A stretch of 64,000 bases of DNA from Megaleporinus macrocephalus (Eukaryota > Chordata > Actinopteri > Characiformes > Anostomidae), in NCBI GenBank assembly GCA_021613375.1, contig CM038726.1, positions 9,028,148-9,092,147 on the forward strand, read 5' to 3'. The notes under the pieces were generated by a model that was not told the DNA's origin, did no database searches, and saw only the letters and a program-made list of their open reading frames with translations. The position numbers and the translations under genes are program-made. This document shows positions 11,487 to 36,400 of this stretch, one piece after another. Each line of letters starts with the position of its first letter. Position 1 is the stretch's first letter.

Positions 11487-11548
11487 GACTGTGTTAGTGA
11501 GAGTCTTTAGGAGGAGATAAAGAGATAAGATGGCGACTGCAAGTAACA
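11487..11548 (+). CDS. Start exon: 5' UTR plus first 19 coding nt
   Basis: Acceptor CTGTAG at 11481-11486 and donor GTAAGT at 11549. ATG at 11530 encodes MATASN plus one base (phase 1), which joins the V-set exon as AAT. An in-frame TAA at 11518-11520 prevents N-terminal extension. The start is chosen because it is the first ATG after that stop and gives the right phase. Confidence 0.55.
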
Positions 11549-14500
11549 GTAAGTTAAACTTCCAGAAGCTACAAAAGGTTTTTACTGTGAACATCATTAA
11601 ATTATTTTCTATCAGAGATTTTATTTTTATTGTGGAGACACACGACCTACAGGTATTAATGTGTGTGTGTTTCTACACAGATCAGTTTCAACTCTCTGGA
11701 CCGCGTGGTGGAGATAGACAGTCTGGCTCTGCGGTCACTCTCTACTGTCACCTGTCTCCTGAAATCAGTGCTGTTACCATGGAGATCAGGTGGTTTAAGG
11801 AGACGGACTGTGTTTGTCTGTATAAGAACAGGCAGGTGACAGAGGGGAGGGGCTACGAGGGCAGAGTGAGTCTGATCACTCAGGAGCTGCAGAGAGGAAA
11901 CGTCTCCTTGCAGATCAGAGACTGCAGAGAGTCAGATACAGGACATTATCTGTGTCAGGTCATCAACGGAGACACAAGAGAGGAGTGTTCAGTAAGAGTA
12001 GATCCGAGTAAGTATTCAGAAGTTCACTGTACATAAACTCAATGTCATTATCAGAGTCTGATCTCAGAACAGTTTTATATAAAAAATGTAAATAAATAAG
12101 TTCTCCAGTTTGTAGAACTAGTGATGATATTTACACTAAATGTACAGATTGATCTTAATAAACTCCAGAAAGTCTGTCTCTGTTTCAGGGCTGATATATT
12201 TGATGTCTTGTTTCTGCATAATTACTAGTTTATTAATGAACTTTACTGTAAATTGTTATCAGTTATTTCTGTAAGTGTTGAGTTTCTGCTGTAGGTTTAT
12301 ACTTTAACTGTTTAGCTGAACATCTTCATGAAGCTGTACTGAAAGCATTGAGTGACAGTTCAGTAGTGAAGGATGAAAAAGGACAGTACAGATGAGAAAA
12401 GGAGATTTCTGATAAGGAGATAAAGAGATTCTGAACTTTTCTAATTGTAAATGATGTTGTGGATGTTTTTATCTAACATTGTCTCTTTCTGTTGTTTAAA
12501 CAGGTGGTTGGGTAAGTAAATGATATTTCCTCCTCCTACTGACAGCTGATACTCACATACACCACATTTTAAAATAACAGTTTTATTTAATGATCATGTG
12601 ATGAACAAAGTCTCTGATCACAGAATGAAGGTTATTGATCTCCATCTCCCTCCTTCCTTCCCACAATGCACCTGTACATAATCCCACTGCACTGCAGAAA
12701 TGTAGAGACAGTGAAGTTCACTGATGAGAAACACACACAACACATACAAGCAGTCTGGACTCTGTTAGGCAGAGTTCTAGCAGTTCTAGCTAAGTTCTAG
12801 ACACATTCTGGCCGAGTCTTAGCCCAATCTTAGCCATCATAGAGTTCTGTCAGTGGTCTAGCAGTGTTGTAGCAGAGTTTTAACAGAGTTCTAGCTATGT
12901 TCTAGCCGGGTTCTAGCAGAGTTTTAACAGCGTTCTAGCCGGGTTCTAGCAGAGTTTTAACAGTGTTCTAGCCAAGTTCTGCCTGAGTTCTAGCAGACTT
13001 TTTTAACACAGTTCTAACAGAATTCTAGCAGAGTTTTAACCAAGTTCTAGCAGAGTCCTAGCAGAGTTCTAGCCGGGTTCTATCAGAGTTTTAACAGAGT
13101 CCTAGTCGAGTTCTGGCTGAGTTCTAGCTGAGTTTATCAGAGTTCTAGCCGAGTTCTAGCACAGTCCCAGCAGGGTTCTAGCCAGGTTCTAACAGAGTTT
13201 TGACAGTGTTCCAGCCAAGCTCTGGCTGAGTTCTAGCAGACTTTTTACACAGTTCTAACCAAGTTCTAGCAGAGTTTTAACAGAATTCTAGCAGAGTTTC
13301 AATAGTTCTAGCAGAGTTTTAACAGAGTTGTAGCAGTGTTTTAAAAGATTTCTAGCAGAGTTTTAACCAAGTTCTAGCAGAGTCCTAGCAGAGTCCTAGT
13401 TGAGTTCTGAATTTTATTGCTCTGCTAACCGAGTCTCAACAGAGTTAAAGCAGAGTTCTAGCCGACTTCTAACTGAGTTTAACAGAGTTCTAGCCGAGTT
13501 CTAGCAGAGTCCTAGACGAGTTCTAGGCGAGTTCTAGCAGATAATGTATGTCATATGATTATAAATTATGGGTTCATTTAAACACTGAAAGGTTTCTGGT
13601 GAATGTATTTCTGACTCATCACTGCTGAAACTGATAGACTCAGTTATATCTGAGACTCTTTTACTGAATGACTGTAACTCTAAAAAGCAGTGAGTGAAAA
13701 TCTCACACTGTCTCCAGTTTATACTCAGAAATCTGCTCACTTTAATCTTCTCTCTGAGTTTCTTGGAGGAACAGGCTGGTAGTTTAGTGGATGGAGTAGA
13801 GTGTGAGTTGTGCTGTGTGTGTTTTGTGATTGGTTGTTTGGCTGAATGGTTAAGTTACTCGTCTCCTGTGTGAGAGAGTGAAGTTCAGTCAGCACAGAGA
13901 AGAACTTCTAGTGGTTTGTACTGGTAATGTAATGGTGTCTCTCTGGTGATGTGTGTGAGGTCATTTAATCTGATCTGTCATCAAAGACTGACAGACCGAC
14001 AGAAAAAGAATCAGACAGACAGACAGACATAGAGAGAATCAGACAGACAGACCGAGAAAATCAGACAGACAGAAACAGACAGACAGAGATACAGACAGAC
14101 AGAGATACAGACAGACAGAGATACAGAAAGACAGACGGACAGACAGAGAGAGAATCAGACAGACAGACAGAGGGACAGAGAGGAGACAAAATTACAGTAA
14201 ATAATATTAAAATTACTGAAATAAAAATCTGAAATATGAGGTTCAGTCTGTATCAGATCCTCATAAAGAAAAGAAACTCTACAAACAGTGCAGTGTTTTC
14301 TACATACACTGTGTTGTTAAATCTCCAGCTTTACTGATATTTACATCTAATAATTCACTTATGATTCCATACATGAAACATTCACTACATATTATTTTCT
14401 TCACAGCGGCGTCTACTGGAGCGTGAGTATAAATCAGTCACAAATCTGATCTTCACACTTATACACACCATTAATAACACTGTTACCCCATTAATAACAC

Positions 14501-17500
14501 TGTTACCTCATTCACACACACACACACACACACACACAAAGACACACATACACACACACATACATACACACACATACATACACACACACCTCATTTATAC
14601 ACTGATACTGACACACCATTAATAACACTGTTACCTCATTCACACACACATACACACACACACACACACACACATACACACATACATTTACATTTTACAT
14701 TTACATTTATGGCATTTAGCAGCCACTATTATCCAGAGCGACTTACAAAAGTGCTTAGTGTTCGGTTAGAGTATGAATCTCTTTCTAGTACAAACAGGAT
14801 TAAGTCCAAGGGCTCGAGGTGCGGTTCGACTTTTGACCATTGCCATAAGGTCAGGAGGAGCTGCTCCATTCTTGGCTTTGTAGGCATCAGAACTTTAAAC
14901 TGAATGTGAGCAGCTACAGGAAGCCAGTGAAGGGAGCGCAGCAGTGGTGTGACATGAGTGTACTTGGGAAGATTAAAGACGAGCCGTGCTGCTGCATTCT
15001 GGATCAGTTGTAAGGGCCTGATGGCCTGCAGAGGAAGACCAGCCAGGAGTGAGTTGCAGTAGTCCAGCCTTAAAATGATAAGAGACTGGACGAGCACCTG
15101 TGAGGCCTCCTGAGAGAGAAAGGGTCGGATGCGTCTGATGTTGTGGAGAATGTATCTGCATGACCGGGTCAGGTTCGTAATATGAGTTGAGAACGATAAC
15201 TGGTCTTCCAGAGTCACCCCAAGGCTTCTTCAGACAGAACAATTAGAGTTCCCGAATGAGATGGCAAGATCCTGCTGAGGACCTGTAGTTCCAGGGATGA
15301 ACAGCAGCTCAGTCTTGCTGGGATTGAGCTTCAGATGATGAGCTGTCATCCATGAAGAGATGTCGGTCAGACATGCAGAGATACGACTGCAAACCTGAGT
15401 ATCAGACTGTGGGAAGGAAAGCATTAGTTGAGTGTCATCAGCATAGCAGTGGTAAGAGAAACCATGAGAGGTAATTACATTACCAAGAGAACGGGTGTAG
15501 AGTGAAAAGAGGAGAGGACCTAGCACTGAGCCTTGGGGGACACCAGTAAGGAGCCTGCAAGGAGCAGATGTAGACTCTCTCCATGTTACCTGGTACGACC
15601 GCCCCTCTAGATAGGACTCCAACCACTTCCATGCAGAGCCCGCGATTCCCAGGTCAGCGAGGACGGATAGAAGGATCTTCACCATGTCGAAAGCTGCAGA
15701 GAGGTCCAGAAGGATCAGAACCGATGACAGTTTGGATGATCTTGCAGTCTGGAGCTCCTCAGTCACCGCTATGAGGGCTGTTTCTGTTGAGTGCACTGGT
15801 TTGAAGACGGACTGGTTGGGGTCCTGGAGCAGGTTCTGGGTGAGAAAGAGAGACAGTTGGTTATAAGTCAAGTCAAGTCAAGTCAAGTGGGTTTTATTGT
15901 CATTTCAACTACATACAGAGTACACAGTGAAACGAAACAACGTTCCTCCAGGACCATGGTGCAACATAGACAGTGTATACAAGACACAAGTGCAACACAA
16001 ACAAACAAGTGCGGACAGACAACACAACACAGTACAGACAGAGAATAATAAATAATTGCTGGTAGTGCAAATTGTGCAATGTGTAATAAATAGAGTCCAG
16101 TGAGGTAGTAAAGTTATCAGTGCAATGCTTTGTGCAAAAATGCTTCCCTTTTTTTTTCTAGGGTAAATGGTTGGAGAGAGAGAGAGAGTGTACATGTACC
16201 AGAAGATATCAGTTCAGACGTTGAGTTGTGTTGAGAAGTCTGATGGCTTGGGGGAAGAAGCTGTTGCAGAGTCTGGTCGTGTTGGACCGGATGCTGCGGT
16301 ACCTTCTTCCTGATGGCAGGAGGGAGAACAGTCTGTGTGAAGGGTGGGTGGGGTCATCCACAATGCTGGTTGCTTTGCGGATGCAGCGGGTGGTGTAAAT
16401 GTCCAAGACGGAGGGGAGAGAGACTCCGATGATCCTCTCAGCTGTCCTCACAATGCGTTGGAGGGACTTGCAGTCAGAGGCTGTGCAGGTCCCAAACCAG
16501 GCAGTGATGCAGCTGCTTAGGATGCTCTCTATGGTTCCCCTATAGAAGAGGGTGAGGATGGGTGGAGGGAGACGGGCCTTTCTCAGCTTCTGGAGGAAGT
16601 AGAGACGCTGCTGGGCTTTCTTGGCTGTAGAGCTGGTGTTCAGGAACCAGGTGAGGTTCTCCGCTAGGTGGACACCAAGGAACTTGGTGCTCTTAACGAT
16701 CTCCACAGAGGAGCCGTTAATGTTAACCGGAGAGTGGACCGGTCTTGATTTCCTGAAGTCAACAACCATTTCCTTGGTCTTCTCTACATTCCAGTGAAGG
16801 TTGTTGACTGTACACCAGTCTGTCAGCTGCTGTACCTCCTCCCTGTATGCTGACTCGTCGCCTTTGCTGATGAGACCCAGCACAGTTGTATCATCGGCGA
16901 ACTTTATGATGCTGTTAGAACTGTGTTTCGCAACACAGTCATGAGTCAGCAGGGTGAACAACAGAGGACTCAGTACACTGCCCTGGGGTGCCCCAGTGTT
17001 CATGGTGATGGTGCTGGGGCTGCTGTTCCCGAACCGGACTAACTGGGGCCTCCCTGTCAGGAAGTCCAGGATCCAGTTGCATAGGGGGGTGTTGAGGCCC
17101 AGCAGGCTTAACTTCCTGGTGAGATTCTGTGGGATGATGGTGTTGAATGCTGAACTAAAGTCTATGAACAGCATTCTGACGTAGGTGTCCTTCTTCTCCA
17201 GGTGGGTAAGGGAGAGATGAAGGGTGGTGGTGATGGCATCGTCCGTGGAGCGGTTGGGTCTTGATGTTCCTCATGACTAGCCTCTCAAAGCACTTCATGA
17301 TGATGGGCGTGAGAGCTACGGGACGGTAGTCATTGAGGCAGGACACCGTGGACTTCTTTGGCACGGGGATGATGGTGGTGGTCTTGAGGCACGTTGGGAC
17401 AGTGGAGCTGCGCAGGGAGATGTTGAAGATGTCCGTGAGAACATCTGTCAACTGGTCTGCACACTCTCTGAGCACTCTGCCAGGGATGTTGTCTGGTCCT

Positions 17501-18498
17501 GCAGCTTTCCGTGGGTTGACTCTGCGCAGAGTTTTCCTCACGTCCACTGCAGTCAGGCACAACACCTGCTCGTCTGGCTTGGGTGTGATCTTGCTCACCA
17601 ACGTGTTGTTCTGTGCCTCAAACCGTGCATAAAAGTCGTTTAGGGCATCGGGGAGGAAGGCATCACTGTCACAGGACGGTGGCATTGTCCTGTAGTGTGT
17701 GATTTCCTGGATGCCCTGCCACATACGCCGCGTGTCACCCGTGTCCTTGAAGTGGTTGTGGATTCTCTGGGCGTGTGCGCGCTTTGCCTCTCGGATGGCT
17801 TGTGACAATTTGGCTCTTGCTTTCCTTAGGGCCGCCTTGTCACCCACTCTGAAGGCCGAGTCGCGGGTCCTCAGTAGCGCACGCACCTCAGGAGTCATCC
17901 ACGGCTTCTGGTTTGGGCGTATGGTCATGGTCTTGGAGACAGTGACATCATCAATACACTTGCTGATGTAGCCAGTGACTGATGCTGTGTACTCCTCCAA
18001 GTTAACAGAGTCACCTTCAGTCGCAGCCTCCCTGAACATGTCCCATGCAGTGCACTCAAAACAGTCCTGAAGGGCAGAGATGCTCCTGCCGGCCAGGTTT
18101 TCACCGGCTTCTGAACTGGTCTGGAGCGTCTGATGAGGGGTGTGTAAGCTGGAGTCAGATACACAGACATGTGGTCCGAGAACGCGAGGTGGGGGCGGGG
18201 CTCCGCCCGGTACGCGCTGGGTATGTTCGTGTAAACAAGGTCCAACGCATTCGCTCCTCTCGTGGCAAAGTCCACATGCTGATGGAATTTAGGGAGGACT
18301 AGAGGGGGGTTTGAGAAGAGAGAAAATACTAAGGAGCTTGCATGGATCAGATGATGATACTTCCATTTTCTCCTTGTAGAAGGATGACTTGGCAGCAGTA
18401 ACCTCCGTTGAGAACACACCTCATCTACACACTGATACTGACACAACATTAATAACACTGTTACCTCAATCATACACACACACATACACATACACACT

Positions 18499-18541
<43 letters not shown>

Positions 18542-18550
18542 ATACACACT

Positions 18551-18585
<35 letters not shown>

Positions 18586-19844
18586 CTTATCTTCATTATT
18601 AACAAAGTTTAATACATAATTAATTATTAATGTTTAATATATTAATTAATAAACTGTTACTGCATAATTACTAGTTTATTAATGAACTTTTACACTTTAA
18701 CTGTTTAGCTGAACATCTTCATGAAGCTGTACTGAAAGCATTAAGTGACAGTTCAGTAGTGAAGGATGAAAAAGGACAGTACAGATGAGAAAAGGAGATT
18801 TCTGATAAGGAGATAAAGAGATTCGGAACTTTTCTAATTGTAAATGATGTTGTGGATGTTTTTATCTAACATTGTCTCTTTCTGTTGTTTAAACAGGTCG
18901 TGTGGTAAGTAAATGATATTTCCTCCTCCTACTGACAGCTGATACTCACATACACCACATTTTAAAATAACAGTTTTATTTAATGATCATGTGATGAACA
19001 AAGTCTCTGATCACAGAATGAAGGTTATTGATCTCCATCTCCCTCCTTCCTTCCCACAATGCACCTGTACATAATCCCACTGCACTGCAGAAATGTAGAG
19101 ACAGTGAAGTTCACTGATGAGAAACACGCACAACACATAAAAGCAGTCTGGACTCTGTTAGGCAGAGTTCTAGCAGTTCTAGCTAAGTTCTAGACACATT
19201 CTAGCCGAGTCTTAGTCCAATCTTAACCTTATTTCTAGAGTTCTGTCAGTGTTCTAGCAGAGTACATGCAGAGTTCTAGAAGTGTTCTGGCAGAGTCCTA
19301 GCAAAGTTCTAGCAGTGCTAGCTGAATTCTAGCTGAGTTCTAGCCGAGTCCTAGACGAGTTCTAGCAGATAATGTATGTCATATGATTCTAAATGATGGG
19401 TTCATTTAAACACTGAAAGGTTTCTGGTGAATGTATTTCTGACTCATCACTGCTGAAACTGATAGACTCAGTTATATCTGAGACTCTTTTACTGAATGAC
19501 TGTAACTCTAAAAAGCAGTGAGTGAAAATCTCACACTGTCTCCAGTTTATACTCAGAAATCTGCTCACTTTAATCTTCTCTCTGAGTTTCTTGGAGGAAC
19601 AGGCTGGTAGTTTAGTGGATGGAGTAGAGTGTGAGTTGTGCTGTGTGTGTTTTGTGATTGGTTGTTTGGCTGAATGGTTAAGTTACTCGTCTCCTGTGTG
19701 AGAGAGTGAAGTTCAGTCAGCACAGAGAAGAACTTCTAGTGGTTTGTACTGGTAATGTAATGGTGTCTCTCTGGTGATGTGTGTGAGGTCATTTAATCTG
19801 TTCTGTCATCAAAGACAGACAGACAGACAGACAGACAGAGAGGC

Positions 19845-19883
<39 letters not shown>

Positions 19884-25800: not shown

Positions 25801-28800
25801 AAACATTATGTAGTAGTGAAATTGTTACATAGATAACAAAGCACGACTTGTTGATGTTGTAGCAACATTGTAAGAAAGTAGATATTGGTGTGACAACGTG
25901 TGTTCGCTGAGAGCGGCACTGAGTCAGAATTAATGTTCATATTTCCAGCCTCTCTTTAGCACTTACAATTAAACACACTGTTTATGTTACTCTGTCTTTA
26001 AGACTGATATATGTAAATGACTTCTGATTGGTCAGTATTGTGTCTTACTAAAAACACTTGCCTGAAACACTTCAGTGTAGGTGGGCGGAGCTAAACTGCT
26101 GTACGAATAGACAGATATATATTTGGATATATATAGTTGGTTTTTGTGACATCACAAGCTCAGTGGTCTCAAAACAGGCCGTATTTGCAGCTTAGTTTCC
26201 ATATATGGACTGTATGTATGGAGTCAAAATAGGGTAATAAAGATTTTGAGTAAATAAAACAATAGTCACAAATGTACTGAAACTTGCAGCTGTTTAAACA
26301 ACTACATGCACGTAAAATCCAAATCCACAAATGAACTGGAATGTGCAAACATGAAACAAAAAGTAATATTAATAATAATTCAAATGTACAAATGTGGAAA
26401 AATATTTTAAATATATAAAAATATATATTTTTTAATTTGTAGAAAAGATTTGCATTTGTAAATCCAATGTTGTGAATGTGTGAATCAGTACTGCTGAAAG
26501 TGTGGAGGTAAAAATCCTCACATTCACCTTCTCTGCTGCAGTTGTGGAACTCTTGCTGCAGTTGTGAATTTTGACCCTGTTTTGACGGCTAATTCATGGA
26601 CCAATAGGAAAACTTAAGCTGGACCAATCAGATTGCGAGGTTTGGTTAACCAATCAGACCACTGATTTGGTGCTGTCACTTCTACATGCTGTTGGAACGC
26701 CCAAACTCCGTCATGGCGCTTCCAGGCACAGATACAATGCTAGTTTATGTTTTTTTTAGCAGAAAGTTGGTTTTAAAGAAGATAACAGGCCGGCTCTGTG
26801 CAGTGGTTTTGCAGTGGCAGTTGTTAGTTAACTAACACAGGCATTTGCTGAGCTTTGGTCAGCTTTTGCAGTAAAACACTGTAGGACACCAGTTAGCCAG
26901 TATATCAAAACACACAAAAATTGTACAGTACCTGTTTTACTAGTAGTGAGCATGATCAACATAACTTTTAATGAACTGACTTCAGAAATTCTGAAAATGT
27001 GTGAAATTACTCATCTGTCCAAAAAGCTTAAGAGTAATAAGAGCAATTATTACTGTGGAACTTGGCCTCTTTCTTCTGCTCTCTGCCTCCCTAGCTGTTT
27101 GTGTGTTTACTGGTATGAAAGCAGTACGTTTTGTTCCTTTGTGGTTTAAATAGTCCAGATTTTCTAATAAGCACCACAGTTACTCTAAACCAGGGGTGTC
27201 AAACTCATTTTGAGGGCCACATCGGCATAATGGCTTTCCTCAAAGGGCCAGATGTAACTTATAAAAGTAACAAAATGTAACCAAATGTAATATAAAATGA
27301 ATGTAACTACTCCTTAATGTTAAATTACTCTAAATGTATTACTTATTCAATTAAAACATTACAGCTGCATGGAAAAAATATGTTTGCTTGTTGCTCTGTT
27401 TTAACATAAATCCTTTTAATTTGTCATGTCAAACCACAAACTCCATCAATCAAGGATCAAACTATTCAAGTGAATAAAAAATATCATCAAACAAGAAAAG
27501 TTATAATATTAACTTTGATCAAAATGTTTGACATATTGAAATGAGGCTTAATTAGTATAAAATCGAAAATTGTGAGCTGCTAAGAGCATGTGTGACAGAT
27601 AAAAAAAAAAACATTGCTTTCATTACAATAAAAACATAAAACCTGCAAACACTAAATACAAAAGCAACTACACGTATCTGTGCTTTCATCAACAGCTAAT
27701 GAAAAAGCTGTGTAGCTGCGTGACTCCTCGGCCAGCTAGTTCCTGCTAGTTCCTTAACTCGGTCAGCGATGGTGTTTCTTGGCAAACTGACATTGTTAGA
27801 AGTCTGTATCTGGTCGGGACACACCTGCTCACAGACCTTCAGCATGCACTGCTTCAAAACACTTTGAAGCATGGGCGATTTCTTCAGCCACAATAAAGCT
27901 AGCTTTCACTGCCGCATTGTTTTTGGCTTTGGTGAACAGATTCTGCTGCGACTTCAGTTTGCCTTTTAATTCTTTTGCAATCTGTTGCTTTTCTTGAAGG
28001 CTAGCTTTGCCGTACTGAGCTCCGTGCTTGGTGTCAAAATGCCGGCGTAGATTGTCTCTTTAATAACCGACATGTTGCTCTGTAACACAAAAGGCATACC
28101 GGTCTTTTGCCTTGAAGCACTTTGTTGAAACAGCCGTCCATCTGCATCAACTTTTCTTTTTCTGCACATTATGGGATCGGCCGCATTATCACATCAATGA
28201 CTACACTGTCCTCTAGTGGCAGTAAGTTGTAACACAATCGACATGCATTGTGGGAAATTTAGTTTTTGGTCAAAGCACGCTTCTGACCTATTTATTTTTA
28301 GACACTAAGACCTTTCAAGCTCTCGTGGGCCACATAAAAGGAAACTTTACCAATTTTTCCAAACTACATCAAAGTCTTTCATTTAAAAAACTATTTTATA
28401 TTAAAATTAAAATTTTCATGATACGGCTCTTTAAAACTTTTACACAACATCTTTCAGTGATATAATGGTTTAGTATATATTTTCAATATTGTAAAGTTTT
28501 CTTTTCTCTCTAATCTGTTATAGATGTCATCATTTCTCAGGTGAGTACATTATTCTAAATAGACCACATTTCCTTAATAATCTGCTTTAATATGAATTTA
28601 ATAAATCTATGAATATAAACATTATTGTGTGTAAATGTGTGCAGAGTTTATTCTTCATAAAGTTTACATTAATTGAGCTTCTTTGATGTTGATTTCTCTT
28701 TCATGGTGTTGAGTTGATGTTATTATAGTGTTAATGCTGATCAGTGTTCTGTAAGTGATCATGATCCTCAGACGCTGCAGAGCTGGAACTAGTTTTAATT

Positions 28801-31800
28801 CCTCTTTTCTGATTTGGGTGTTTCTGTGGATCTGATACTCTCTTCCCATGAGGTCCTGATTGATGAATGATTTATTCTGAAAACTGAAAGTATAAGATGT
28901 AAAATAGCTTTTATTCAGTTCTTAATTAAATATTGTGTGTGATGATCACAGCACAGTCTCTGTAGTGTATGTGTGAACTCTGTCTCAGTCAGACTGTGTT
29001 TAAAGTCCCACAACTGTAAACAAATAATGAACATAATGCTGATTAAACACGACTTTAAAAGATGCTGATTTTCAAACACAATATCAGTTTAAATCAGTTC
29101 AACTCATCAGAGTCTCTACTGTTATTAATATCAGCTCTCAGTGATTCATACTGACACACCAACAGTGATTTAAACAGAGAAACACTTACTGATCACATAA
29201 CATACAGAACGACGTCATACATAAAATCTTGCACTGTTTTATTCAGAGAGAAAGAAAATGGAAAGAAGAGGAAAGAATGAAAATGGAGGAATCTACTCTG
29301 CTGACTGGTGAGGATGATCATGTTTATTTTTGTAAGCGTGTGTGTTTTAAGGTGATTTTGGTATGATGTATAGTTTAGACTGCTTGTGAGTTTAGTTGTT
29401 TGATTCATGAGATTTAATATAAAACTATTATCCATGTGATACACTTATAATAAAGAAAATATATGTAACTAGGATCTGATTAATCTTAAATAGATTCCTT
29501 TTCACAGTTTTTTCTCTCTTCTACATATTAACACCTCAGATTTTTAGTAGTGAGTAAATGTTTGGTCCTTTGATCTAAATATTAACACACCTCCGACAGA
29601 GGAAACACTTCTGCATATTTTAATGCACAATCATTGTTTATTAAAATAAAATAAAATTTGGATTTCATTGTATTTTATTCTGAAAAATATATATTTTTTT
29701 CTCTGTACATGTTAACTTATTTTCACCAGGATTGCTTCAACATTTTCATTCAAGTTCAAATTTTTTTTGTAGGCAATTTTTTAAATAGCACAATTTAGTG
29801 TTCTTGAAATAAATGAAAGCTTAAGGAAAATCAAAAGAAGAAATAAAAGATATTTTTAAAAATGAAGAAAAAAATGTTAGGGTTAAATGTTAATATTATT
29901 TAAATGTTAAATAATATGCAAATGGAATCCTGAGAACTAACACCTCAGGGACGCATTTTGAAAAACAGATTCACTAAAATAAACGTAAAGACTTAAAGAT
30001 ACAGACAACAAAATAAAGTATAAAATATTGAATGAACAGAAATGAAAATAGTGTTTAAATCAAGTGTAACAAAAAAGGTAAAATGTTAAAGGAAAATGTT
30101 TATGGGGTGAATTACCATCCAATAAAACAACAAAAACAATTAGTTTTATTTGTCAAGTAGTTTTTTAACCCTACGTTACTCCAGTTACCCTCTTACACCA
30201 TGTTTACGCTACATAGCCTGCACTTAAAATTCAGTCCACACACATTCAGTTCATCAGCGTTAATACAGAGTTTTGCATTATCCAAGAAAGTCCAAGTCCA
30301 CCAATAATGAAAGACACGCTCACTTTGAATTCCTAGAAAAGATGATATGATCCGCTACCAGAACTAAACAGTTCCTCAAACAAAGGTCTAAAGAAGAAGG
30401 ACACTCTCTTTTCTCCCCCCCCCCCCTCCATGTTCATCTCTTGTAGATAAATACACTCAACTTAAACAACACTGCCCCCTGGTGTCCAGATAGCTAAACG
30501 TGTGTCTGATACTACTAATACTGATAATATTAGGTAAATACCTGCAGAGACTGATATAAATATAATACAGTACATAGTATTACACTGTAGTCTGTCTGTA
30601 AGTTATAGATGTGAAAATGTTGAACTAGCTGTGCATCAGTGTTTATTAGTGTTAGTGCTTGTTTATAAACAAAAAACATAAGTGTCTTTATTAAAAAACA
30701 GTGAATAACATCAAACAGAAAACTGATAAACTCCTAAATGCAAAAACTATTTTAACAGTTCAGAAGAACTTTATCATAAATTGTTTCTTTAGTTGATAAA
30801 TTATATCAGATTAAACACACACAGTATAAAGTAACACACTGTAACACTACACTGTTCAATTACAGAATTAAGAGAGGAGAGGTTTCCTGGACCTGTACTG
30901 AAGAACTTAATGAGCTTAATTGAAGAAAAGAAAGTTCTGGATGAAAAGCTAAAGGAAGCGGAGACTGAACTGGAGAAAACAGTCAAACAGGCAGACAGTA
31001 AAGAAGAGGAGGAACATGTGGGGATAGAGAAGATCAGAGAGATCAGCCTGGAGATCAGAGAGATGCAGGAAAGAAGAGTGAGAGAAAGAGTGGAGATGAG
31101 ACAAACAGAGGAAGAGGAGATAAAAAGAAATATGAAAGCTGCTGTGGATTATTTGAGGAGCTCAGAGGAAGAAGTTAAAAACATAGAGGAGAAGATAAAA
31201 CAGCATAAAAAACAGAAACATGAATGTGAGGAAAAGTTCTCAGAGGAGAGAAATGAAGAGAAGAGGAGAGAGCTGGGGAGAGAGGTGGAGAGAGAAGATG
31301 AGCAGATGAAGGAGGCTGAAGATGAGCTGAAAAGAATACAGGAGGAAAGGAGGATAATGGTGAAGAAACTCAAACTGGAGATGGAGATCAGAGAGAAGAA
31401 TGCAGTAGAAGATACTCACTTCATCAGGAAGCTGCCTGAACTCATTACTCACACGTTTCTAACCAACAGACAGAAAGAGTTTGATAGTAAGATAAATGCA
31501 AAAGAGAGAGAGTTAGAAACACTGAAAGAAAACATCTCAGAGATAGAGAAAGATAAAGAAAAACAACTAGAAGAGAGAAATAAGACTTTAGAAGAGAAAA
31601 ACAAACAACTTGAACAACAAGATGCTGAATTAGAAAAAAATACAAAAACAATAGAAAACAAAAATAAAACAATAGAGGAGAAGAATGAACAGCTGAGAGA
31701 GAAAGAGAGTCTACTGGAGAACACAGTGAAAGAGGTGGACAGCAGTAAAAAACAACTGGACACACTGAGAAAGGTACTGCAGGACAAGAGCAGCAAACTA

Positions 31801-34800
31801 CAGGAGATGATGATCCCACTGGAAGAACAGAAAACTGAAGTCACTCGTCAGCAGAAAGAGTTTGAAGAGAAAGAACAACAACTTAAACACACAGGTAAGA
31901 ATTTAACACACAGACTGATTAGAAAATATCTGAGTGATCAAATTAATATTGTCTTTATCATTTCAGCACAGCAGAATTCTGACCTACAGACTGAAACTGA
32001 AACCCTGAAAAGTATCATTTCATCACAGATGACTGGTGAGTTTTCAGGTTTAAGCTCAGCAGTTTCAGTCTTTATTAACTGTGTTCATTAATGTACCTGA
32101 ATCATTGTCAACACACACTAGCAGTCAAACCTTTAGCATATCAGCATATGTATGAGTTCAGTCCTGCTGGAAAATCACCAGGAGAGAGAATTTATAGTGA
32201 GGAGAACTGACACTCAGTGTGTTGTAGGTCTGTTAGACGCTAGAGGGCGCTCCGCTCCCGAGACAGTCCAGAATGACTGACAGAGAACAGCATGAAAATC
32301 TTCAGCACTGCTGTTATTTTTCTGATATATATTATTAAAAAAAAAACATTAAAATTCTACTTTCTGAAATGAAAAATAATTCCAACATAAAATGAAAAGT
32401 AAAGTAAAATTTTTGTTAGCCTTTTATTTCCATAAACTCCCATTTATTAAGGATTTACTCAATGGTGCCCTATAGTGTTCTGCAGTCATGTGTTTAGTAC
32501 AATGGGAGAGATATGAACTGATCAGGATCCCCTTAAACTGATTCTAACTTGAGAGAATGTCAAGAGTATGTAAATCAGCAAACTAGTGAATTAGAAGATA
32601 TATTTGATTTGTTTATATTCTTTGGTGTGTGTATAATTTGGTGTGTATTATATTAGAGTGCTGATTTTTTCCAGGTTTTTTTAAGAGATAAAATCTGCAT
32701 GTCTCTTTAGCAGCTAATAAACTTACTGCTGTTAAATCTCAATACTGTATATCTGTAAACTGACTAATTGTTTCCAGACTTTGTTAAATAGAAATAAAGT
32801 CTGTTTTACTTTAATGTGTCCTTTTCAGCTAATAAACTTACTTTCTCTGAATTGATGTTTTCTTACAGATTTAACTGAAAAGAACAAAAAGCTCAAAGAA
32901 ACAAATACTATTATAACTGAGAGAGACACACAGTTAATGGAGAGAGAAAAACAAGCTGAGGAGAAAAACAGACTTCTGACTGAAAATACAGCAACACTTC
33001 AGATGAAGAACAAAATATTAGAAGAGAAAGAAAAACTTCTCACAGAGACACAAGATGAACTGATACAAACAATAAAGAAATCAGAGAATCATAGAATACA
33101 AAGAGAAGAAATGGAGAAAAGACTTGTGGAGAAAGATGAAGAATTAAAAGAGATAAAACAACAACTGAATGATAAAGAAATAAAACTGAAAGAGAAAGAC
33201 GCAACTATAAAAGAACATTTAGAGATTATTGAACAACAGAAAACTGAACTGAGTGAAAAAGACAAACAGCTGGAAGAGAAGGAGAAACTTCTAAGTGAGA
33301 GAAACACACAGCTAATGGAAAGAGAGAAGCAGGTTGAGAAGAAAGACAGACTTCTAGAGGAGAGAAACAAGCAGCTGAAGGAAAGAACAGATTCAGACTC
33401 ATCAGGTCCAGCCTGTAAGTAACTGTTAGAATTGTGTGAAGTTACAAACAATTAAAATAGAAATATTACATGTTTAATTATTCATATTAACATTGATCAC
33501 ACACTGTAGGTGTTACACTAGAATACATGTTTAAATATGAATAAAAATAATGATATAATAATATACGATATATAAAACATTATAATCTAATAATAAACTA
33601 AACATACTAAAATATAATGTACTGTCCTTATTTTATAATAATTACACAGCAGGTCATTAAACTCATACAGAGATTTTACACTATATACCATCTACAAACT
33701 ACTCAATAACAATCTTCATTATATGTGGTTCTTCTGTTTCATAGTCAGTGGAGAGACTCCAGAATCTGCAGCACCACTCAGGAGAAGAAACAGTAAAGAA
33801 CATCCTCCAGATAGTAAATAATTTCAGTTTCATACAGTCATATACATTTCTCTGAACAGAATGATCATCAGGTTATAATAAGTGATTAAAATCCTCATTC
33901 TTGTTGATCTGCAGTGAGTGGAGAATCCTCTAGTTCAGCCTCTCCAGTGTCAGTTCCTGGAGCAGAACTCAGGCTGGTGCTGCTGGGGAGGACTGGATGT
34001 GGGAAGAGTGCAGCAGGAAACACCATCCTGGGCAGAGAGGAGAGGAGCCAGGCTGGAGCGTCTACAGTGAGGCAGCAGAGTGAGAGCAGACAGGGGGAGG
34101 TGGCTGGGAGGCAGGTGACTGTGGTGGACACTCCTGACTGGTTCTGCCCTGGACTCTCTCTGGAGGACCTGAGACAGGACGTGGGAAGCTGTGTCCATCT
34201 GTCTGCCCCAGGACCCCACGTCTTCCTCCTAGTCATACCAGTGAAGCAGTCTACAGGAGAGGAGAGAGGGATGCTGGAGAAAATGGAGGAGATCTTTGGA
34301 GAGAGATGTTGGAGGAACACCATGATCCTTTTCACTGTTACTGATGAAGTCCAGGAGAAGAACATTGAAGAGTTTATCCAGTCAGGAAAGCAGGAGGTCC
34401 GGAGACTTGTAGAGAAATGTGGGAACAGGTTTCACTCTCTCAGCATTAAGGACAGTGGAGATGCTTCTCAAACCTCAGAGCTGCTGGAGAAGATAGAGAA
34501 GATGGTGGAAGGAAACAAAGAGAAGTTCTACAGCAGTGAGATCTACCTGGAGATCGAATCTCAGATCAAAGAAATAGAGAAAAGAATTGTGAGAGACATT
34601 GTGAGAGAGAGAGGAGATAAGAGAGAGAGAAGAAAGAGAAACTAGAGAGAAACTGGAGAGATGTGTACAAGAGACGTTCATGAAGTTTACAGAATTGACT
34701 GCTGACTTCCATACAAAACTAAATCAGCATGAAGAGCGAATAGTTAAACTAGAGAAAACGCTGAAAGAGGAAAGAGATGAGAAGAGAAAAATAGAGCTAG

Positions 34801-35297
34801 AGAGAGAGATGGAAAGAGAGGTTCAACAGAGGGATGAGGTTCAGTTGGAGTTAAAGAGACTGAAAGAAGAGAGTGAAAAGGAGAGGAGAGAGATGGAAGA
34901 GAGACACAGACAGGAGATGGAGGAGATCAGAGAGACATATGAAGGAGAAGATAAGATGGAGGCAGAGAGAAACCTCATGAAGATCATCCTGCCTGAACTC
35001 CAGCGGAGAACCTGGGAGCTTTTAACGAAGAAACAGAAAGATTTTGATTGTAGGATGGATGAAAAGGAGAGAGAGATAGAAACACTGAGGTGGAGAATCA
35101 GAGAGGGAATCACAGCAGGAGGAGATGATCATCAGGAGGACACTAGAGGAGTGTTCAGCAGGTTAACACAGCTGCTGTTTTGGTGGACAGGCAGAGATCC
35201 AGTTATGATCACTCTGTCAGATCAGTGACTTGATACACATTTAAAGTGTTCAAAAACAACAACATTACTCATGTTAACACTACTAAAACTACTACGG

Positions 35298-35339
<42 letters not shown>

Positions 35340-35400
35340 TTTAAGAAATATAATATATTATTATATGTAGGTCTTTTATATGAGTAGTCTGCAATAAAAA
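11487..35400 (+). CDS. Multi-exon gene: V-set Ig, coiled coil, GIMAP/AIG1 GTPase
   Basis: Predicted gene of about 24 kb. Coding exons, with phases that all agree: 11530-11548, 11681-12007, 12504-12511, 14407-14422, 18897-18904, 20115-20130, 28524-28540, 29247-29307, 30866-31894, 31967-32035, 32869-33414, 33745-33813 and 33915-34645. Coding length to the first stop is 2916 nt (971 residues). Order: short N-terminus, V-set Ig, basic linker from micro-exons, about 580 residues mostly coiled coil, GTPase. An in-frame TAA at 11518 lies upstream of ATG 11530. The N-terminus has no hydrophobic signal peptide and I see no membrane segment, so the product is predicted to be cytosolic. A coiled-coil tail continues out of frame to 35228, and AATAAA lies at 35393. 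GIMAPs are immune GTPases that bind GTP and often assemble on membranes. The role of the Ig domain is inferred only. Exon joins need transcript evidence; no name is assigned. Confidence 0.75.
11681..12007 (+). CDS. V-set immunoglobulin domain exon
   Basis: A 327-nt symmetric phase 1-1 exon between acceptor ACACAG and donor GTAAGT. It encodes one complete V-type Ig domain: GSAVTLYC (B-strand Cys), EIRWFK (core Trp), a CVCLYK segment with two extra cysteines, [27 protein letters not shown] (D-x-G-x-Y-x-C, F-strand Cys) and a C-terminal strand ending SVRVDP. The pattern is closest to the butyrophilin/MOG/B7 type of V-set. No leader peptide is encoded upstream, which is odd for an Ig domain that normally forms a disulfide in the secretory pathway. 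Confidence 0.92.
12504..12511 (+). CDS. Micro-exon 1a (8 nt)
   Basis: Eight bases between TTTAAACAG and GTAAGT. It enters in phase 1 and leaves in phase 0. Its duplicate at 18897 keeps the same length and both splice sites, which supports it as a real exon. It must be included or skipped together with the 16-nt exon at 14407 to hold the frame. Confidence 0.6.
12775..13545. repeat. GAGTTCTAGC-type minisatellite (long allele)
   Basis: About 770 bp of imperfect 10-20-bp units (GTTCTAGCAGAGTTTTAACA and variants) inside the intron after micro-exon 1a. The duplicated intron at 19165-19375 has a much shorter array. Spacers are not unique and units vary, so this is not a CRISPR array. Confidence 0.93.
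13775..13920 (+). repeat. tRNA-like, SINE-derived sequence (copy 1)
   Basis: TGGCTGAATGG at 13839-13849 fits a pol III A box and GTTCAGTC at 13883-13890 resembles a degraded B box at near-tRNA spacing. No cloverleaf with paired acceptor stem can be drawn, so this is at most a fossil tRNA-derived SINE. The duplicate lies around 19603-19748. Confidence 0.3.
13988..14180. repeat. (ACAG/ACAGAC)n minisatellite
   Basis: Tandem GACAGACAGA and AGAGATACAGACAGAC units. The equivalent array in the duplicate segment is at about 19814-19882. Confidence 0.93.
14407..14422 (+). CDS. Micro-exon 1b (16 nt)
   Basis: CGGCGTCTACTGGAGC between TTCACAG and GTGAGT. It is read in phase 0 as RRLLE plus one base. 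Its duplicate at 20115 (read ELLLS plus one base) keeps length and sites. Confidence 0.6.
14470..14700. repeat. (CA)n and short minisatellite at LINE insertion site
   Basis: CACACA and CATACA runs alternate with copies of ATTAATAACACTGTTACCTC. The same unit resumes at about 18440 beyond the LINE block, so the two LINEs inserted inside this array. Confidence 0.9.
14688..15868 (-). mobile_element. 5'-truncated L2-type LINE (C-terminal RT, 3' end)
   Basis: The minus strand reads from 15871 to 14729 through an L2-clade reverse transcriptase: [47 protein letters not shown], then the thumb region ([35 protein letters not shown]). The reading switches frame near 15225 and decays after about 14880. 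The 3' end has the L2 hallmark GTAAGTCGCTCTGGAT followed by an ATGTAA-type tail (plus strand 14688-14708). The 5' end abuts the tail of the next LINE, indicating nested insertion. It lies antisense in an intron of the Ig/GIMAP gene. Confidence 0.92.
15862..18365 (-). mobile_element. CR1/L2/Rex1-type LINE, partial endonuclease, full RT and tail
   Basis: The minus strand carries an ordered non-LTR ORF2: C-terminal apurinic endonuclease part ([28 protein letters not shown]) near 18290-18120, linker and RT N-terminus at 18039-17155 ([36 protein letters not shown]), and RT core plus C-terminus at 17174-16209 ([54 protein letters not shown]). Frameshifts occur near 18040 and 17160-17230. The 3' UTR ends with TTTTATTGTCATTTCAACTA-related sequence and an (AAGTC)n-type tail at 15862-15890. 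The 5' end is truncated inside the endonuclease at about 18365. Clade assignment is from motif memory. Confidence 0.9.
18425..18585. repeat. (CA)n / CACACATA microsatellite
   Basis: Resumption of the ATTAATAACACTGTTACCTC plus CA array that the LINEs interrupt. An open frame through it (His-Thr repeats) is an artefact of the CA repeat. Confidence 0.95.
18897..18904 (+). CDS. Micro-exon 2a (8 nt)
   Basis: GTCGTGTG between AAACAG and GTAAGT. Paralogue of micro-exon 1a (GTGGTTGG). Phase 1 in, phase 0 out, giving R-R-V with the preceding base. Confidence 0.58.
19165..19375. repeat. GAGTTCTAGC-type minisatellite (short allele)
   Basis: About 210 bp of the same units as 12775-13545, in the paralogous intron. 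The difference shows contraction or expansion after the duplication. Confidence 0.9.
20115..20130 (+). CDS. Micro-exon 2b (16 nt)
   Basis: GAGCTTCTACTGTCAC between TTCACAG and GTGAGT. Phase 0 in, phase 1 out (ELLLS plus one base). Paralogue of 14407-14422; the two pairs together add 8 codons each. Confidence 0.58.
20131..20362 (+). repeat. Donor-containing minisatellite, about 40-bp period
   Basis: About six copies of GTGAGTATAAATCAGTGTGT plus TTTAGATGAG. The first copy begins exactly at the 5' splice site of micro-exon 2b, so every unit repeats a GTGAGT donor-like string (the fourth and later units vary). Confidence 0.9.
20366..22044 (-). mobile_element. IS630/Tc1-mariner-like element, left inverted arm
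   Basis: About 1.68 kb matching the reverse complement of 22045-23780. Degraded transposase pieces are visible (minus strand 21309-21497 reads [26 protein letters not shown] sequence). The outer end lacks the last ~20 bp of the terminal repeat and about 100 bp near the inner end are deleted. A poly-T run sits at 21318-21333. Non-functional. Confidence 0.75.
22045..23780 (+). mobile_element. IS630/Tc1-mariner-like element, right arm with TIRs
   Basis: The ends are CAGTTTTTCTTGATTGTTTA at 22049 and its reverse complement ending at about 23775, flanked by TA, the target of this superfamily. Plus-strand fragments resemble the fish IS630-like transposase: [10 protein letters not shown] at about 22450, then [20 protein letters not shown] at about 22820-22890. 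Stops and frameshifts remove any intact transposase. With the left arm it forms a 3.4-kb inverted repeat inside an intron. Confidence 0.78.
23781..25700. other. Intron sequence, unclassified purine-rich repeat remnant
   Basis: No recognisable exon. 24600-25660 is G/A-rich on the plus strand, giving frames at 24623-24919 (plus) and 25002-25358 (minus, Pro/Ser/Leu-rich) without known motifs and without matching splice sites. It reads like decayed mobile-element sequence of unknown family. Confidence 0.4.
25900..26165. repeat. Dispersed non-autonomous element (MITE-like)
   Basis: Contains ATGTAAATGACTTCTGATTG, GTAGGTGGGCGGAGCTAAAC and TTTTTGTGACATCACAAGCT, strings I associate with a common fish dispersed repeat. 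Terminal repeats were not resolved. Confidence 0.5.
26166..27186. other. Intron sequence, no gene recognised
   Basis: A/T-rich; 26270-26500 has repeated CAAATG/GTGAATGTG strings that look like an old MITE. Only chance ORFs. Confidence 0.45.
27187..28345 (-). mobile_element. hAT-type transposon fragment
   Basis: The left end CAGGGGTGTCAAACTCATTT with GGGCCACATCGGCATAATGG is a typical hAT terminus; the right side has GGGCCACATAAAAG at 28327 but no clean terminal repeat. The minus strand encodes transposase pieces at 28169-27966 ([13 protein letters not shown], a start like that of ZBED/GTF2IRD2-type hAT proteins) and 27893-27696 ([31 protein letters not shown]). The pieces are in different frames with the middle and C-terminal parts missing. 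Confidence 0.78.
28524..28540 (+). CDS. Micro-exon 3 (17 nt)
   Basis: ATGTCATCATTTCTCAG between TGTTATAG and GTGAGT. It takes one base from micro-exon 2b and ends in phase 0 (reads H-V-I-I-S-Q). Flanking intron is not similar to the duplicated pair. Confidence 0.5.
29247..29307 (+). CDS. 61-nt linker exon
   Basis: Acceptor TTTTATTCAG, donor GTGAGG. Phase 0 in, phase 1 out. Encodes a highly charged helix start ([16 protein letters not shown]). Confidence 0.6.
29308..30865. other. Intron, A/T-rich
   Basis: No gene. Notable only for an A/T-rich block at 29600-30170 and a poly-C run at about 30413-30426. Confidence 0.5.
30866..31894 (+). CDS. Large coiled-coil exon
   Basis: A 1029-nt phase 1-1 exon (acceptor AATTACAG, donor GTAAGA) encoding about 343 residues, almost all Glu/Lys/Arg/Gln-rich heptads with one break near the middle ([20 protein letters not shown]). 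The stretch around that break resembles the tail after the GTPase (34950-35090: [27 protein letters not shown]), so the coiled-coil module seems duplicated. Long minus-strand Ser/Phe/Leu-rich frames here are shadows of this exon. Confidence 0.85.
31967..32035 (+). CDS. 69-nt coiled-coil exon
   Basis: Acceptor TTTCAG, donor GTGAGT, phase 1-1. Encodes [20 protein letters not shown]. The same length and phase as the exon at 33745. Confidence 0.65.
32869..33414 (+). CDS. Second coiled-coil exon with internal repeat
   Basis: A 546-nt phase 1-1 exon (acceptor TTACAG, donor GTAAGT), 182 residues of coiled coil. The start and end repeat a segment: [17 protein letters not shown] at about 32928 and [17 protein letters not shown] at about 33306, indicating an internal duplication of heptads. 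Confidence 0.8.
33745..33813 (+). CDS. 69-nt hinge exon before the GTPase
   Basis: Acceptor TTTCATAG, donor GTAAAT, phase 1-1. Encodes a flexible, basic Ser/Pro stretch ([20 protein letters not shown]) that probably separates coiled coil from GTPase. Confidence 0.6.
33915..34645 (+). CDS. GIMAP/AIG1-type GTPase exon
   Basis: Acceptor GATCTGCAG. Encodes a complete AIG1-type G domain: [16 protein letters not shown] (G1 P-loop, 33986-34033), a conserved Thr for G2 in [15 protein letters not shown] (G3 at about 34127, Asp in place of the usual Gly), the GIMAP hallmark strand [23 protein letters not shown] (G4 at about 34334) and a helical C-terminus ([12 protein letters not shown]). Catalytic features look intact. 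In GIMAPs this domain binds GTP and drives oligomerisation. The first splice codon A|TG could also act as a start in a shorter transcript. The frame ends at TAG 34643 after a GA-rich stretch. Confidence 0.95.
34640..35228 (+). pseudogene. Coiled-coil tail of the GTPase, displaced by a frameshift
   Basis: In the frame one base on from the GTPase, codons from about 34620 run open through [18 protein letters not shown] to a stop at 35226-35228. The tail is a coiled coil ending with [19 protein letters not shown]. The break lies in a GA-rich run at about 34600-34640, where a one-base gain or two-base loss would explain it. Either the tail is lost in this allele or the assembly has a slip. The ATG at 34680 is internal and unlikely to be a real start. 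Confidence 0.7.
35302..35338. repeat. (ATA)n microsatellite in the 3' UTR
   Basis: About 12 ATA/AAT units about 75 bp after the tail stop codon. A poly(A) signal AATAAA follows at 35393-35398. Confidence 0.95.
35393..35398 (+). terminator. Poly(A) signal of the Ig/GIMAP gene
   Basis: AATAAA 165 nt after the tail stop at 35228, the first canonical signal downstream. Confidence 0.5.
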
Positions 35401-35569: not shown

Positions 35570-36400
35570 TTTTGTGAACATTAAAAATAGTTTTGTGCAT
35601 ATGAATTGTCTTAAACCCCATTTTTATTTTCAGTGGTGAAGTTAATACATTGTTCAGCACACAGCGCATGAAAGTATTGAACACGTCACCAATTTTCTAA
35701 AGGTGCAATGGACATGAAATTCTCACCATATATCAGTAACAACCCATCCAATCCTCCCATGCAAAGAAATCAAAACATTGATGTCCATAAATTATGTGTA
35801 ATAATGGGAAATGACACAGGGAAAACGTATTGAATATGCTTACTGAAATTTATTTAATACTTCGTACAAAAGTCTTTGTTGGTGATTACATCTTCAAGAC
35901 AACTCCTGTATGGAGAAACCATTTGCATACATTGCTCGGGTGTGATTTTGGCCCATTCTTCCACACAAACACTTTTCAAATCCTGAGAGCTCAGTGGGTT
36001 ACTTCTATGAACTCTGAGCTTTAGTTCCTTCCATAGATTTTCAGGTGGATCCAGGTCAGGTGATTGGGTTGGCCATTCTAGCTGCTTTATTTTCTTTCTC
36101 TGAAACAAAGTAAATTTCCTTGTCTGTGTGTTTGGGATCATTGTCTTGCTAAAACATTCACCCTGGTTTCATCATCATTCTGGTAGATGGCAGGCTTCAC
36201 TGTTGGTATGGTGTTTTTGGGGTGATATGCAGTGCCTTTTGGCCGCCAAACATGGTGTGTATTATGGCATCCAAAGAGTTCAATTTTGGTCTCGTCTAAC
36301 CAGACTATATTCTCCCAGTATTTCACAGGCTTGTCTAAATGTTGTTGAGCAAAATTGAAATACGCTCTAATGTGCTTTTTATTCAGCAATTAAGTCTTGC
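35570..36400 (-). mobile_element. Tc1/mariner transposase remnant
   Basis: The minus strand reads the C-terminal half of a Tc1 transposase: AYFNFAQQHLDKPVKYWENI, WLDETKIELFGCH (first catalytic Asp, then the F/G strand), PKNTIPTVKPA at 36389-36138, and WPTQSPDLDPPENLWKELK (second catalytic Asp with DLDP-EN-W) at 36141-35854. The two pieces differ in frame and the sequence between them is missing. The flank near 35640-35790 (AACACGTCACCAATTTTCTA) is typical of the 3' end of fish Tc1 copies. Confidence 0.88.

Follow-up and report, generated by a model that had tools for sequence, protein, structure and literature searches.

The window, a 64,000-nt stretch of the Megaleporinus macrocephalus genome (contig CM038726.1, here C25; C25:9028148-9092147 of the 1.28-Gb assembly), carries a gene that joins a butyrophilin/MOG-like V-set immunoglobulin (Ig) domain to coiled coils and an AIG1-type (GIMAP) GTPase. 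Judged from sequence, this fusion is real and recurrent, and it looks like an undescribed kind of intracellular immune protein. Ig variable-type domains are viewed as modules for recognition outside the cell, and GIMAPs as lymphocyte GTPases of the cytosol whose trigger is unclear. We lean towards reading the gene as a member of a tandem fish gene family in which a cytosolic V-set head for sensing or docking sits on a coiled coil and a GIMAP domain, and in which this head has been shuffled among self-assembling outputs. A V-set joined to AIG1 is not described in the titles and abstracts of the open-licence literature among the matches listed, a body of work from which subscription journals are mostly absent.

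The V-set, coiled-coil, linker and AIG1 exons are collinear on the plus strand, with consensus splice sites and open phases (Table 1). Pfam bears out both terminal domains at the positions where an earlier note on this DNA had placed them, a butyrophilin/MOG-like V-set at 11681-12007 (E 1e-13) and an AIG1 GTPase at 33915-34645 (E 5.4e-51, 173.4 bits vs a curated cut-off of 27); the AIG1 domain contains both a GxxxxGK[ST] P-loop (GRTGCGKS) and the DTPD switch motif. A tblastn comparison of 167 proteins with the window picked out a single strong V-set site and a single strong AIG1 site (best match per 500-base bin). The coiled-coil exons are long, charged and heptad-like by eye, and their sole Pfam match (Tropomyosin) is below the cut-off. 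A noncoding exon probably lies upstream of the first coding exon, with an acceptor before 11487. The thirteen exons of the earlier note were not reproduced; we find 10 coding exons if all micro-exons are used and 9 in the variants supported by paralogues. Its perfectly compatible phases are indeed open, but they are weaker as proof than they sound, since three different micro-exon chains are all open.

A homology search with the first 160 residues of the spliced window model, in the version that uses both micro-exons, was passed by 131 proteins; two later searches gave 162 and 1142. The matches listed, up to 120 per search, comprised 276 different relatives, whose domains were scored with the window's own V-set and AIG1 as queries. 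V-set and AIG1 stand in one chain in 69 of these 276 relatives, from 26 fish genera that we take to be grouped as characiforms, catfishes, knifefishes, cyprinoids and loaches, milkfish, and Salmo. All 69 carry fish names. This architecture search, which the earlier note had proposed, upholds its fish restriction and, together with the tandem V-set/AIG1 pairs in the gene's own genome, its claim of one gene joining V-set, coiled coil and GIMAP. Many relatives have precomputed V-set and AIG1 domains under the names trichohyalin-like, golgin A6-like, kinectin-like or hypothetical; misleading names of the trichohyalin-like, golgin-like and kinectin-like kind hide V-set-GIMAP proteins in databases. 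P0067 and P0174, two Colossoma proteins from a single contig given as isoforms X2 and X4, have their C-terminal part in common by eye and bear different product names; the V-set is present in P0067 and missing from P0174. The Labeo protein P0166, only 461 aa long, holds both domains.

The own genome shows the same pairing. The V-set search of the assembly gave 62 rows (150 of 155 candidates scored), and at least 28 copies on C25, including one divided between two rows, are at least 78% identical; the AIG1 search scored 150 of 332 candidates, and its counts are lower bounds. For an order test we took from C25 25 V-set copies at 8.1-10.9 Mb and 23 AIG1 copies at 8.1-10.6 Mb; three AIG1 rows around 10.78 Mb and three further V-set copies at about 7.2-7.35 Mb were set aside. 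The immediate 5' neighbour is a same-strand V-set in 19 of the 23 AIG1 copies, whereas 20,000 label shuffles averaged 6.2 and never exceeded 14. V-set to AIG1 distances range from 3.7 to 72 kb. Six compact copies, with 3.7-8.0 kb from V-set to AIG1, hold V-set, helix exon and AIG1 in order, and five of them have coiled-coil matches between V-set and AIG1 (L012 does not). An accidental gene join is rejected as the main explanation in view of the compact copies and the order statistic. Elsewhere on C25, at 6.3-7.4 Mb, a second dense AIG1 cluster with short open frames (about 220-350 aa) lies beside the V-set cluster.

The linker downstream of the V-set was also compared with these relatives and paralogues. 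In the window, the route from 11681-12007 through the 17-nt exon (28524-28540) to the signature helix exon (29247-29307) and the route through the 8-nt micro-exon (12504-12511) are both open. The 8-nt micro-exon is in frame with the helix exon only when the 17-nt exon is skipped, and a chain with both is open only if the acceptor is shifted from 29247 to 29249. We rejected this joint chain, which yields MSSFLR where relatives and paralogues read VIISQ or VWVYQ into 29247. The micro-exons of the earlier note's linker are present, but their joint use is not favoured, and the two appear better read as alternative exons. The linker reads SSWDKPYFCVWQSNREWTEEER in P0065, SSWSNREWTEEER in P0067 and KVIISQWDRVWTEQER in P0072. 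Among the six compact paralogues, L011 and L012 keep the 17-nt exon plus a micro-exon of 8 or 11 nt, all six keep the helix exon, and five have a phase-0 acceptor equivalent to 29247 (the L010 alignment stops short of the site). A strict regular expression for the helix matched 43 of 70 V-set chains with AIG1, four of five with CARD, and 14 of 94 with neither, where it takes forms such as WTEEETNKMDES. As this expression overlooks variants such as LTEEER, an alignment of 45 chosen fusion chains was used instead; in it, helix residues W140, E144, K147, M148 and S151 (P0166 numbering) are at least 90% invariant.

In most fusion chains the V-set head begins close to the N-terminus. The window's MATASN-coding exon contains, 12 nt upstream of its ATG, an in-frame TAA. 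Of 27 V-set copies considered, the window and 26 others, 22 have an exon of this pattern ahead of the V-set (L033 and L034 repeat L045 and L047 and were left uncounted), with an in-frame stop at most 30 nt upstream in 21 of the 22; L035 has a changed acceptor ahead of its MATASN-type exon. Across 70 fusion chains, namely the 69 relatives and the window model, the V-set lies no more than 25 residues from the N-terminus in 47, of which 39 begin MA, and five are N-truncated. The window model has no transmembrane segment (top 19-residue mean hydropathy 1.46 vs a cut-off of 1.6). Nor does it show a signal peptide or the extracellular topology of a butyrophilin-type receptor, given its MATASN start and upstream in-frame stop. 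Lacking a signal peptide, the V-set is unlikely to be an extracellular receptor, and the chain is probably cytosolic; a V-set receptor with a signal peptide was rejected because of the MATASN exon and the in-frame stops upstream. Separately, cyprinid butyrophilin-like 2 proteins (such as P0014, P0018 and P0027) carry three V-sets and no evident signal peptide (MAARSSNDFQ and similar).

The same head is found on a second class of genes. In P0074, P0103, P0139 and P0144, V-set and helix are joined to FIIND and CARD; P0112, in which the helix motif is missing, combines V-set with CARD and may be a chimeric prediction. P0144 scores 1.4e-43 for FIIND, 4e-28 for UPA-FIIND and 1.2e-12 for CARD, its CARD being nearest the zebrafish GBP CARD (PDB 4irl) and its FIIND nearest NLRP1. 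This FIIND keeps the histidine (AHF) and a serine aligned to the NLRP1 stretch PSFSPLG, whose serine is presumably the self-cleavage site; the preceding residue is L, not F. The AlphaFold model of P0144 (10 rows) had a mean pLDDT of 34.8 and was not used. On C25, within the window's own cluster, a V-set exon at 10428554-10428871 has downstream of it, and in the same orientation, a helix exon (RKWTKEEREKMEKS), FIIND exon matches spanning C25:10441110-10444333 with unrefined exon ends, and a CARD exon match at C25:10447843-10448088 (locus rows L044, L057, L065). In twelve 10-kb stretches searched next to nine V-set exons for which no AIG1 partner was counted, FIIND and CARD lay beside one of the nine; for the others, 10-20 kb may be too short. 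No FIIND or CARD was found in the window gene among the best matches per 500-base bin (167 query proteins, including P0144, P0074 and P0103); one 24-residue P0144 match lies at 53082-53153 of the window (E 0.088). P0048, P0112 and P0168 share, by eye, a further segment (VVLHHTFDPD...VDCLFHEDRGLL-like) beside V-set, AIG1 or CARD parts, and the extra segment of P0048 and P0168 matched no Pfam family.

P-loops were readable in 64 of the 70 V-set-linked AIG1 domains, of which 34 are canonical, and in 98 of 108 AIG1 chains without a V-set, of which 69 are canonical. By a simpler count, 36 of the 70 fusion chains contain GxxxxGKS at any place. The window's own cluster has 21 canonical P-loops of 23. 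The commonest non-canonical form, GKR, occurs in Colossoma, Acnodon, Serrasalmus, Pygocentrus and Metynnis; loaches and Labeo show EKS or EKR, and Salmo trutta has GRS. Such lineage-specific changes suggest repeated loss of normal GTP handling. The earlier note spoke of an oligomerising GTPase. The window's own P-loop is canonical, but GTP-driven oligomerisation cannot be assumed for all members.

The AlphaFold model of P0166 (45 rows; mean pLDDT 77.7, pTM 0.45), in which the relative placement of domains is unreliable, contains, besides the V-set and the GIMAP domain, an additional strand (128-136) and a helix (142-158), with long helices flanking the GTPase on both sides. In Foldseek, its best match is human GIMAP2 (E 4.5e-13), and its V-set best matches single-domain chains of MOG and BTN3A1 with TM by target of 0.74-0.80. 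Among 52 chains in which both domains are near full length, W44, C50 and C52 are present in 51, 52 and 51, respectively. A FastTree phylogeny of 168 AIG1 domains places all 64 V-set-linked rows within one starred group of 141, the rest being 26 GIMAP8-like rows and one long-branch row; rows were picked by similarity to the fusion AIG1 or V-set, which leaves room for V-sets on other GIMAPs. Within the 141-row group, rows with and without a V-set are intermixed (36 label changes, five of them forced by well-supported branches).

The comparisons of sequence and gene order show a common architecture that lacks a signal peptide, a clustered arrangement, and the same head used again on FIIND-CARD genes. 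In the reading we lean towards, the V-set and signature helix would bind an intracellular partner, either a microbial product or a host protein attacked by microbes. The coiled coils would multimerise the protein, and the GIMAP domain would build, or dock on, GTP-regulated septin-like assemblies, perhaps membrane-bound. Sister genes would route the same head to an inflammasome-type FIIND-CARD output, and in lineages with degenerate P-loops the GIMAP part may act as a scaffold or pseudo-GTPase. More tentatively, the genes could constitute a cytosolic Ig-V sensor system, a germline-diversified, NLR-like family whose cassette of leaderless V-set and WTEEERxKMEES helix, diversified within a tandem cluster, is mounted on a coiled coil-GIMAP or an autoprocessing FIIND-CARD, with degenerate GIMAPs as scaffolds or decoys. 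If true, a leaderless V-set-GIMAP chain whose head recurs on FIIND-CARD would represent a new route of intracellular immune sensing in fish, and what GIMAPs respond to would become directly testable, by binding the head and watching the GTPase assemble.

Several observations weigh against a sensing or docking head in the cytosol. The splice model of the window gene is deduced from sequence. A MATASN-type exon is not shown in five of the 27 V-set copies; among these, L009 carries a variant MATNTR exon and L054 is a partial V-set, and the acceptor AG preceding the V-set is altered in L012. The V-set lies further in in 18 of the 70 fusion chains, at least four of which have an internal MATASN-like start that suggests mis-joined models, and 14 of the 70 have a 19-residue hydrophobic stretch above 1.6 somewhere. 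The Ig cysteines are retained (C29 in 50 and C98 in 52 of 52 chains), which fits an oxidising compartment. Non-canonical P-loops occur in 30 of the 64 readable V-set-linked chains, and 104 of the 168 AIG1 tree rows have no V-set in the available model, the head being non-obligatory or often missed. The CDR1- and CDR2-like stretches are conserved while variation lies in the first strands and toward the domain end, a pattern that argues against a diversified ligand site, and the V-set ratio of nonsynonymous to synonymous change (dN/dS), near 1, could reflect relaxed constraint. Finally, the window copy is truncated by a frameshift.

Its AIG1 frame stops at 34645, and the family-typical coiled coil continues in another frame to 35228; the out-of-frame tail (34662-35225) is 79% identical to the Colossoma relative P0065, and the frameshift sits in a GA-rich stretch. 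From the P-loop region on, 19 of 23 AIG1 copies in the cluster are open for at least 398 residues (L031 repeats L010 and was left uncounted), the shorter frames being those of the window (226 residues), L014 (281), L021 (293) and L030 (34). A programmed frameshift at the AIG1 end was set aside, as 19 of 23 paralogues need none. This may impair the copy; alternatively, the indel could be allelic or stem from an error in the assembly. We see an appreciable, if lesser, chance that the window copy is a decaying pseudogene within an otherwise functional family, having lost to the GA-rich frameshift a tail that most copies keep open and bearing transposon remains in its 16-kb intron. Against this, its exons, splice sites and P-loop are otherwise intact, no further stop lies inside the model, and a lone repeat indel may be allelic or an assembly error.

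The V-set has changed faster than the GTPase. Median pairwise identity is 0.70 for the V-set vs 0.79 for AIG1, with the V-set lower in 1299 of 1326 pairs. Among own-genome copies, the 26 V-sets have a mean dN of 0.088 and dS of 0.096 (ratio 0.91; dN > dS in 133 of 325 pairs), and the 23 AIG1 domains a mean dN of 0.031 and dS of 0.090 (ratio 0.34; dN > dS in 1 of 253 pairs); these Nei-Gojobori estimates come from non-independent pairs and do not separate relaxed constraint from diversification. Change along the V-set is low at residues 31-78 (mean pN 0.03-0.05) and higher at 7-30 and 103-114. It is conceivable, though in our judgement unlikely, that the V-set is no sensor and serves as a constitutive docking or self-association domain of a scaffold, partly a pseudo-GTPase, that varies mainly by relaxed constraint. 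The quiet central residues and the many non-canonical P-loops fit such a scaffold; the presence of the head on FIIND-CARD proteins, which fits a sensor position, and the tandem expansion with a faster-changing V-set do not.

The canonical Ig cysteine pair is unusual in cytosolic domains, and its conservation would suit a V-set that faces the secretory pathway or the cell exterior, by means either of a different first exon or of unconventional export. We regard this as very unlikely in view of the MATASN exon with its upstream in-frame stop (21 of 22 copies), the MA start of 39 of the 47 early-start chains, and the GIMAP and FIIND-CARD partners, which are known as cytosolic domain families. That V-set and coiled-coil/GIMAP are mostly separate transcripts, fused by gene prediction across neighbours, is highly improbable: gaps reach 72 kb, models without a V-set exist, many AATAAA motifs lie in between (though these are expected in AT-rich DNA) and certain database chains are visibly mis-joined, but six copies share 3.7-8.0 kb spacing and identical exon order, the 461-aa Labeo chain has both domains, and similar short N-termini and helix linkers recur across genera.

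The cytosolic V-set-GIMAP architecture resembles several known systems in part. Like the GIMAP family, of which GIMAP1, 2, 4, 5 and 7 have been solved, the gene has an AIG1 domain with P-loop and DTPD, probable flanking coiled coils and cluster expansion; unlike it, the gene places a leaderless V-set and several hundred residues of coiled coil ahead of the GTPase, and the P-loop is degenerate in many relatives. With butyrophilin/MOG V-sets it shares the fold and the C-W-C core (PDB sequence matches to BTN1A1, BTN2A1, MOG and CD276), but it differs in the lack of a signal peptide, an extra conserved Cys52 and cytosolic partners.

GIMAP2 and GIMAP5 bind GTP, which neither hydrolyses on its own, and scaffolds in the GTP-bound state have been suggested (PMC8201404). 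In zebrafish, inflammasome-dependent clearance of Salmonella requires the GTPase-CARD protein Gbp4 (PMC4932187). The sister genes, with a V-set head on FIIND-CARD, resemble Gbp4 and NLRP1-type FIIND-CARD proteins, whereas the window gene shows neither FIIND nor CARD, and Gbp4 combines GTPase and CARD with no V-set described in the available part of that article (PMC4932187). AIG1 proteins of Biomphalaria glabrata stand in tandem arrays and carry N-terminal death-fold (DD-CARD), kinase or ARM domains, a likeness in added domains and arrangement; unlike the window gene, these proteins have no Ig domain in that account, in whose main text "immunoglobulin" has 0 occurrences (PMC7053062). An anchovy genome report describes GIMAP8 expansion and, in the part available, leaves a V-set-AIG1 architecture unmentioned (PMC13403563).

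Table 1. Features of the V-set-GIMAP gene, in window coordinates.
Feature	Position	Strand	Remarks
First coding exon	11487..11548	+	5' UTR, TAA 11518-11520 in frame, ATG 11530, codes MATASN; no signal peptide
V-set (butyrophilin/MOG-like) exon	11681..12007	+	Phase 1-1, 109 residues; Pfam match, PDB matches of the relative P0065, and paralogues
Alternative 8-nt micro-exon (SGW)	12504..12511	+	SSW or GPW in relatives
Large intron	12512..28523	.	Reverse-transcriptase open reading frames (ORFs), tandem duplication, inverted repeat
Alternative 17-nt exon	28524..28540	+	Best reading NVIISQ, phase 1 in, 0 out; NVFIYQ in P0145, KVIISQ in P0072
Signature helix exon	29247..29307	+	Family consensus WTEEERxKMEES
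Coiled-coil exon	30866..31894	+	Phase 1-1
Coiled-coil exon	31967..32035	+	Phase 1-1
Coiled-coil exon	32869..33414	+	Phase 1-1
Linker exon	33745..33813	+	Donor at 33793 or 33814, phase unchanged
AIG1 (GIMAP) GTPase exon	33915..34645	+	P-loop GRTGCGKS; terminated by premature stop
C-terminal coiled-coil tail, frame-shifted	34605..35228	+	Long tail in frame in 19/23 cluster copies
AATAAA, likely polyadenylation signal	35393..35398	+	

Repeats and mobile elements occupy the large intron and the flanks of the gene. A reverse transcriptase lies at 10-378 (+), and matches below the Pfam cut-off to a DDE transposase and an integrase core lie at 35854-36168 (-) and 37620-38318 (+). Weak V-set-like tblastn matches at 59274-59387 (-), from 19 query proteins (best E 0.002) and with an internal stop, are perhaps chance or a relic. 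Within the intron, a tandem duplication (12296-14438 and 18689-20146, 91-94% identical in pieces) encloses reverse-transcriptase ORFs at 15230-17270 (-), and an inverted repeat spans 20367-21993 and 22185-23761, its arms 90-96% identical. An 11-bp tandem repeat, AGAGTTCTAGC, is present in about 64 copies at 12841-13541 and recurs at 19237-19369.

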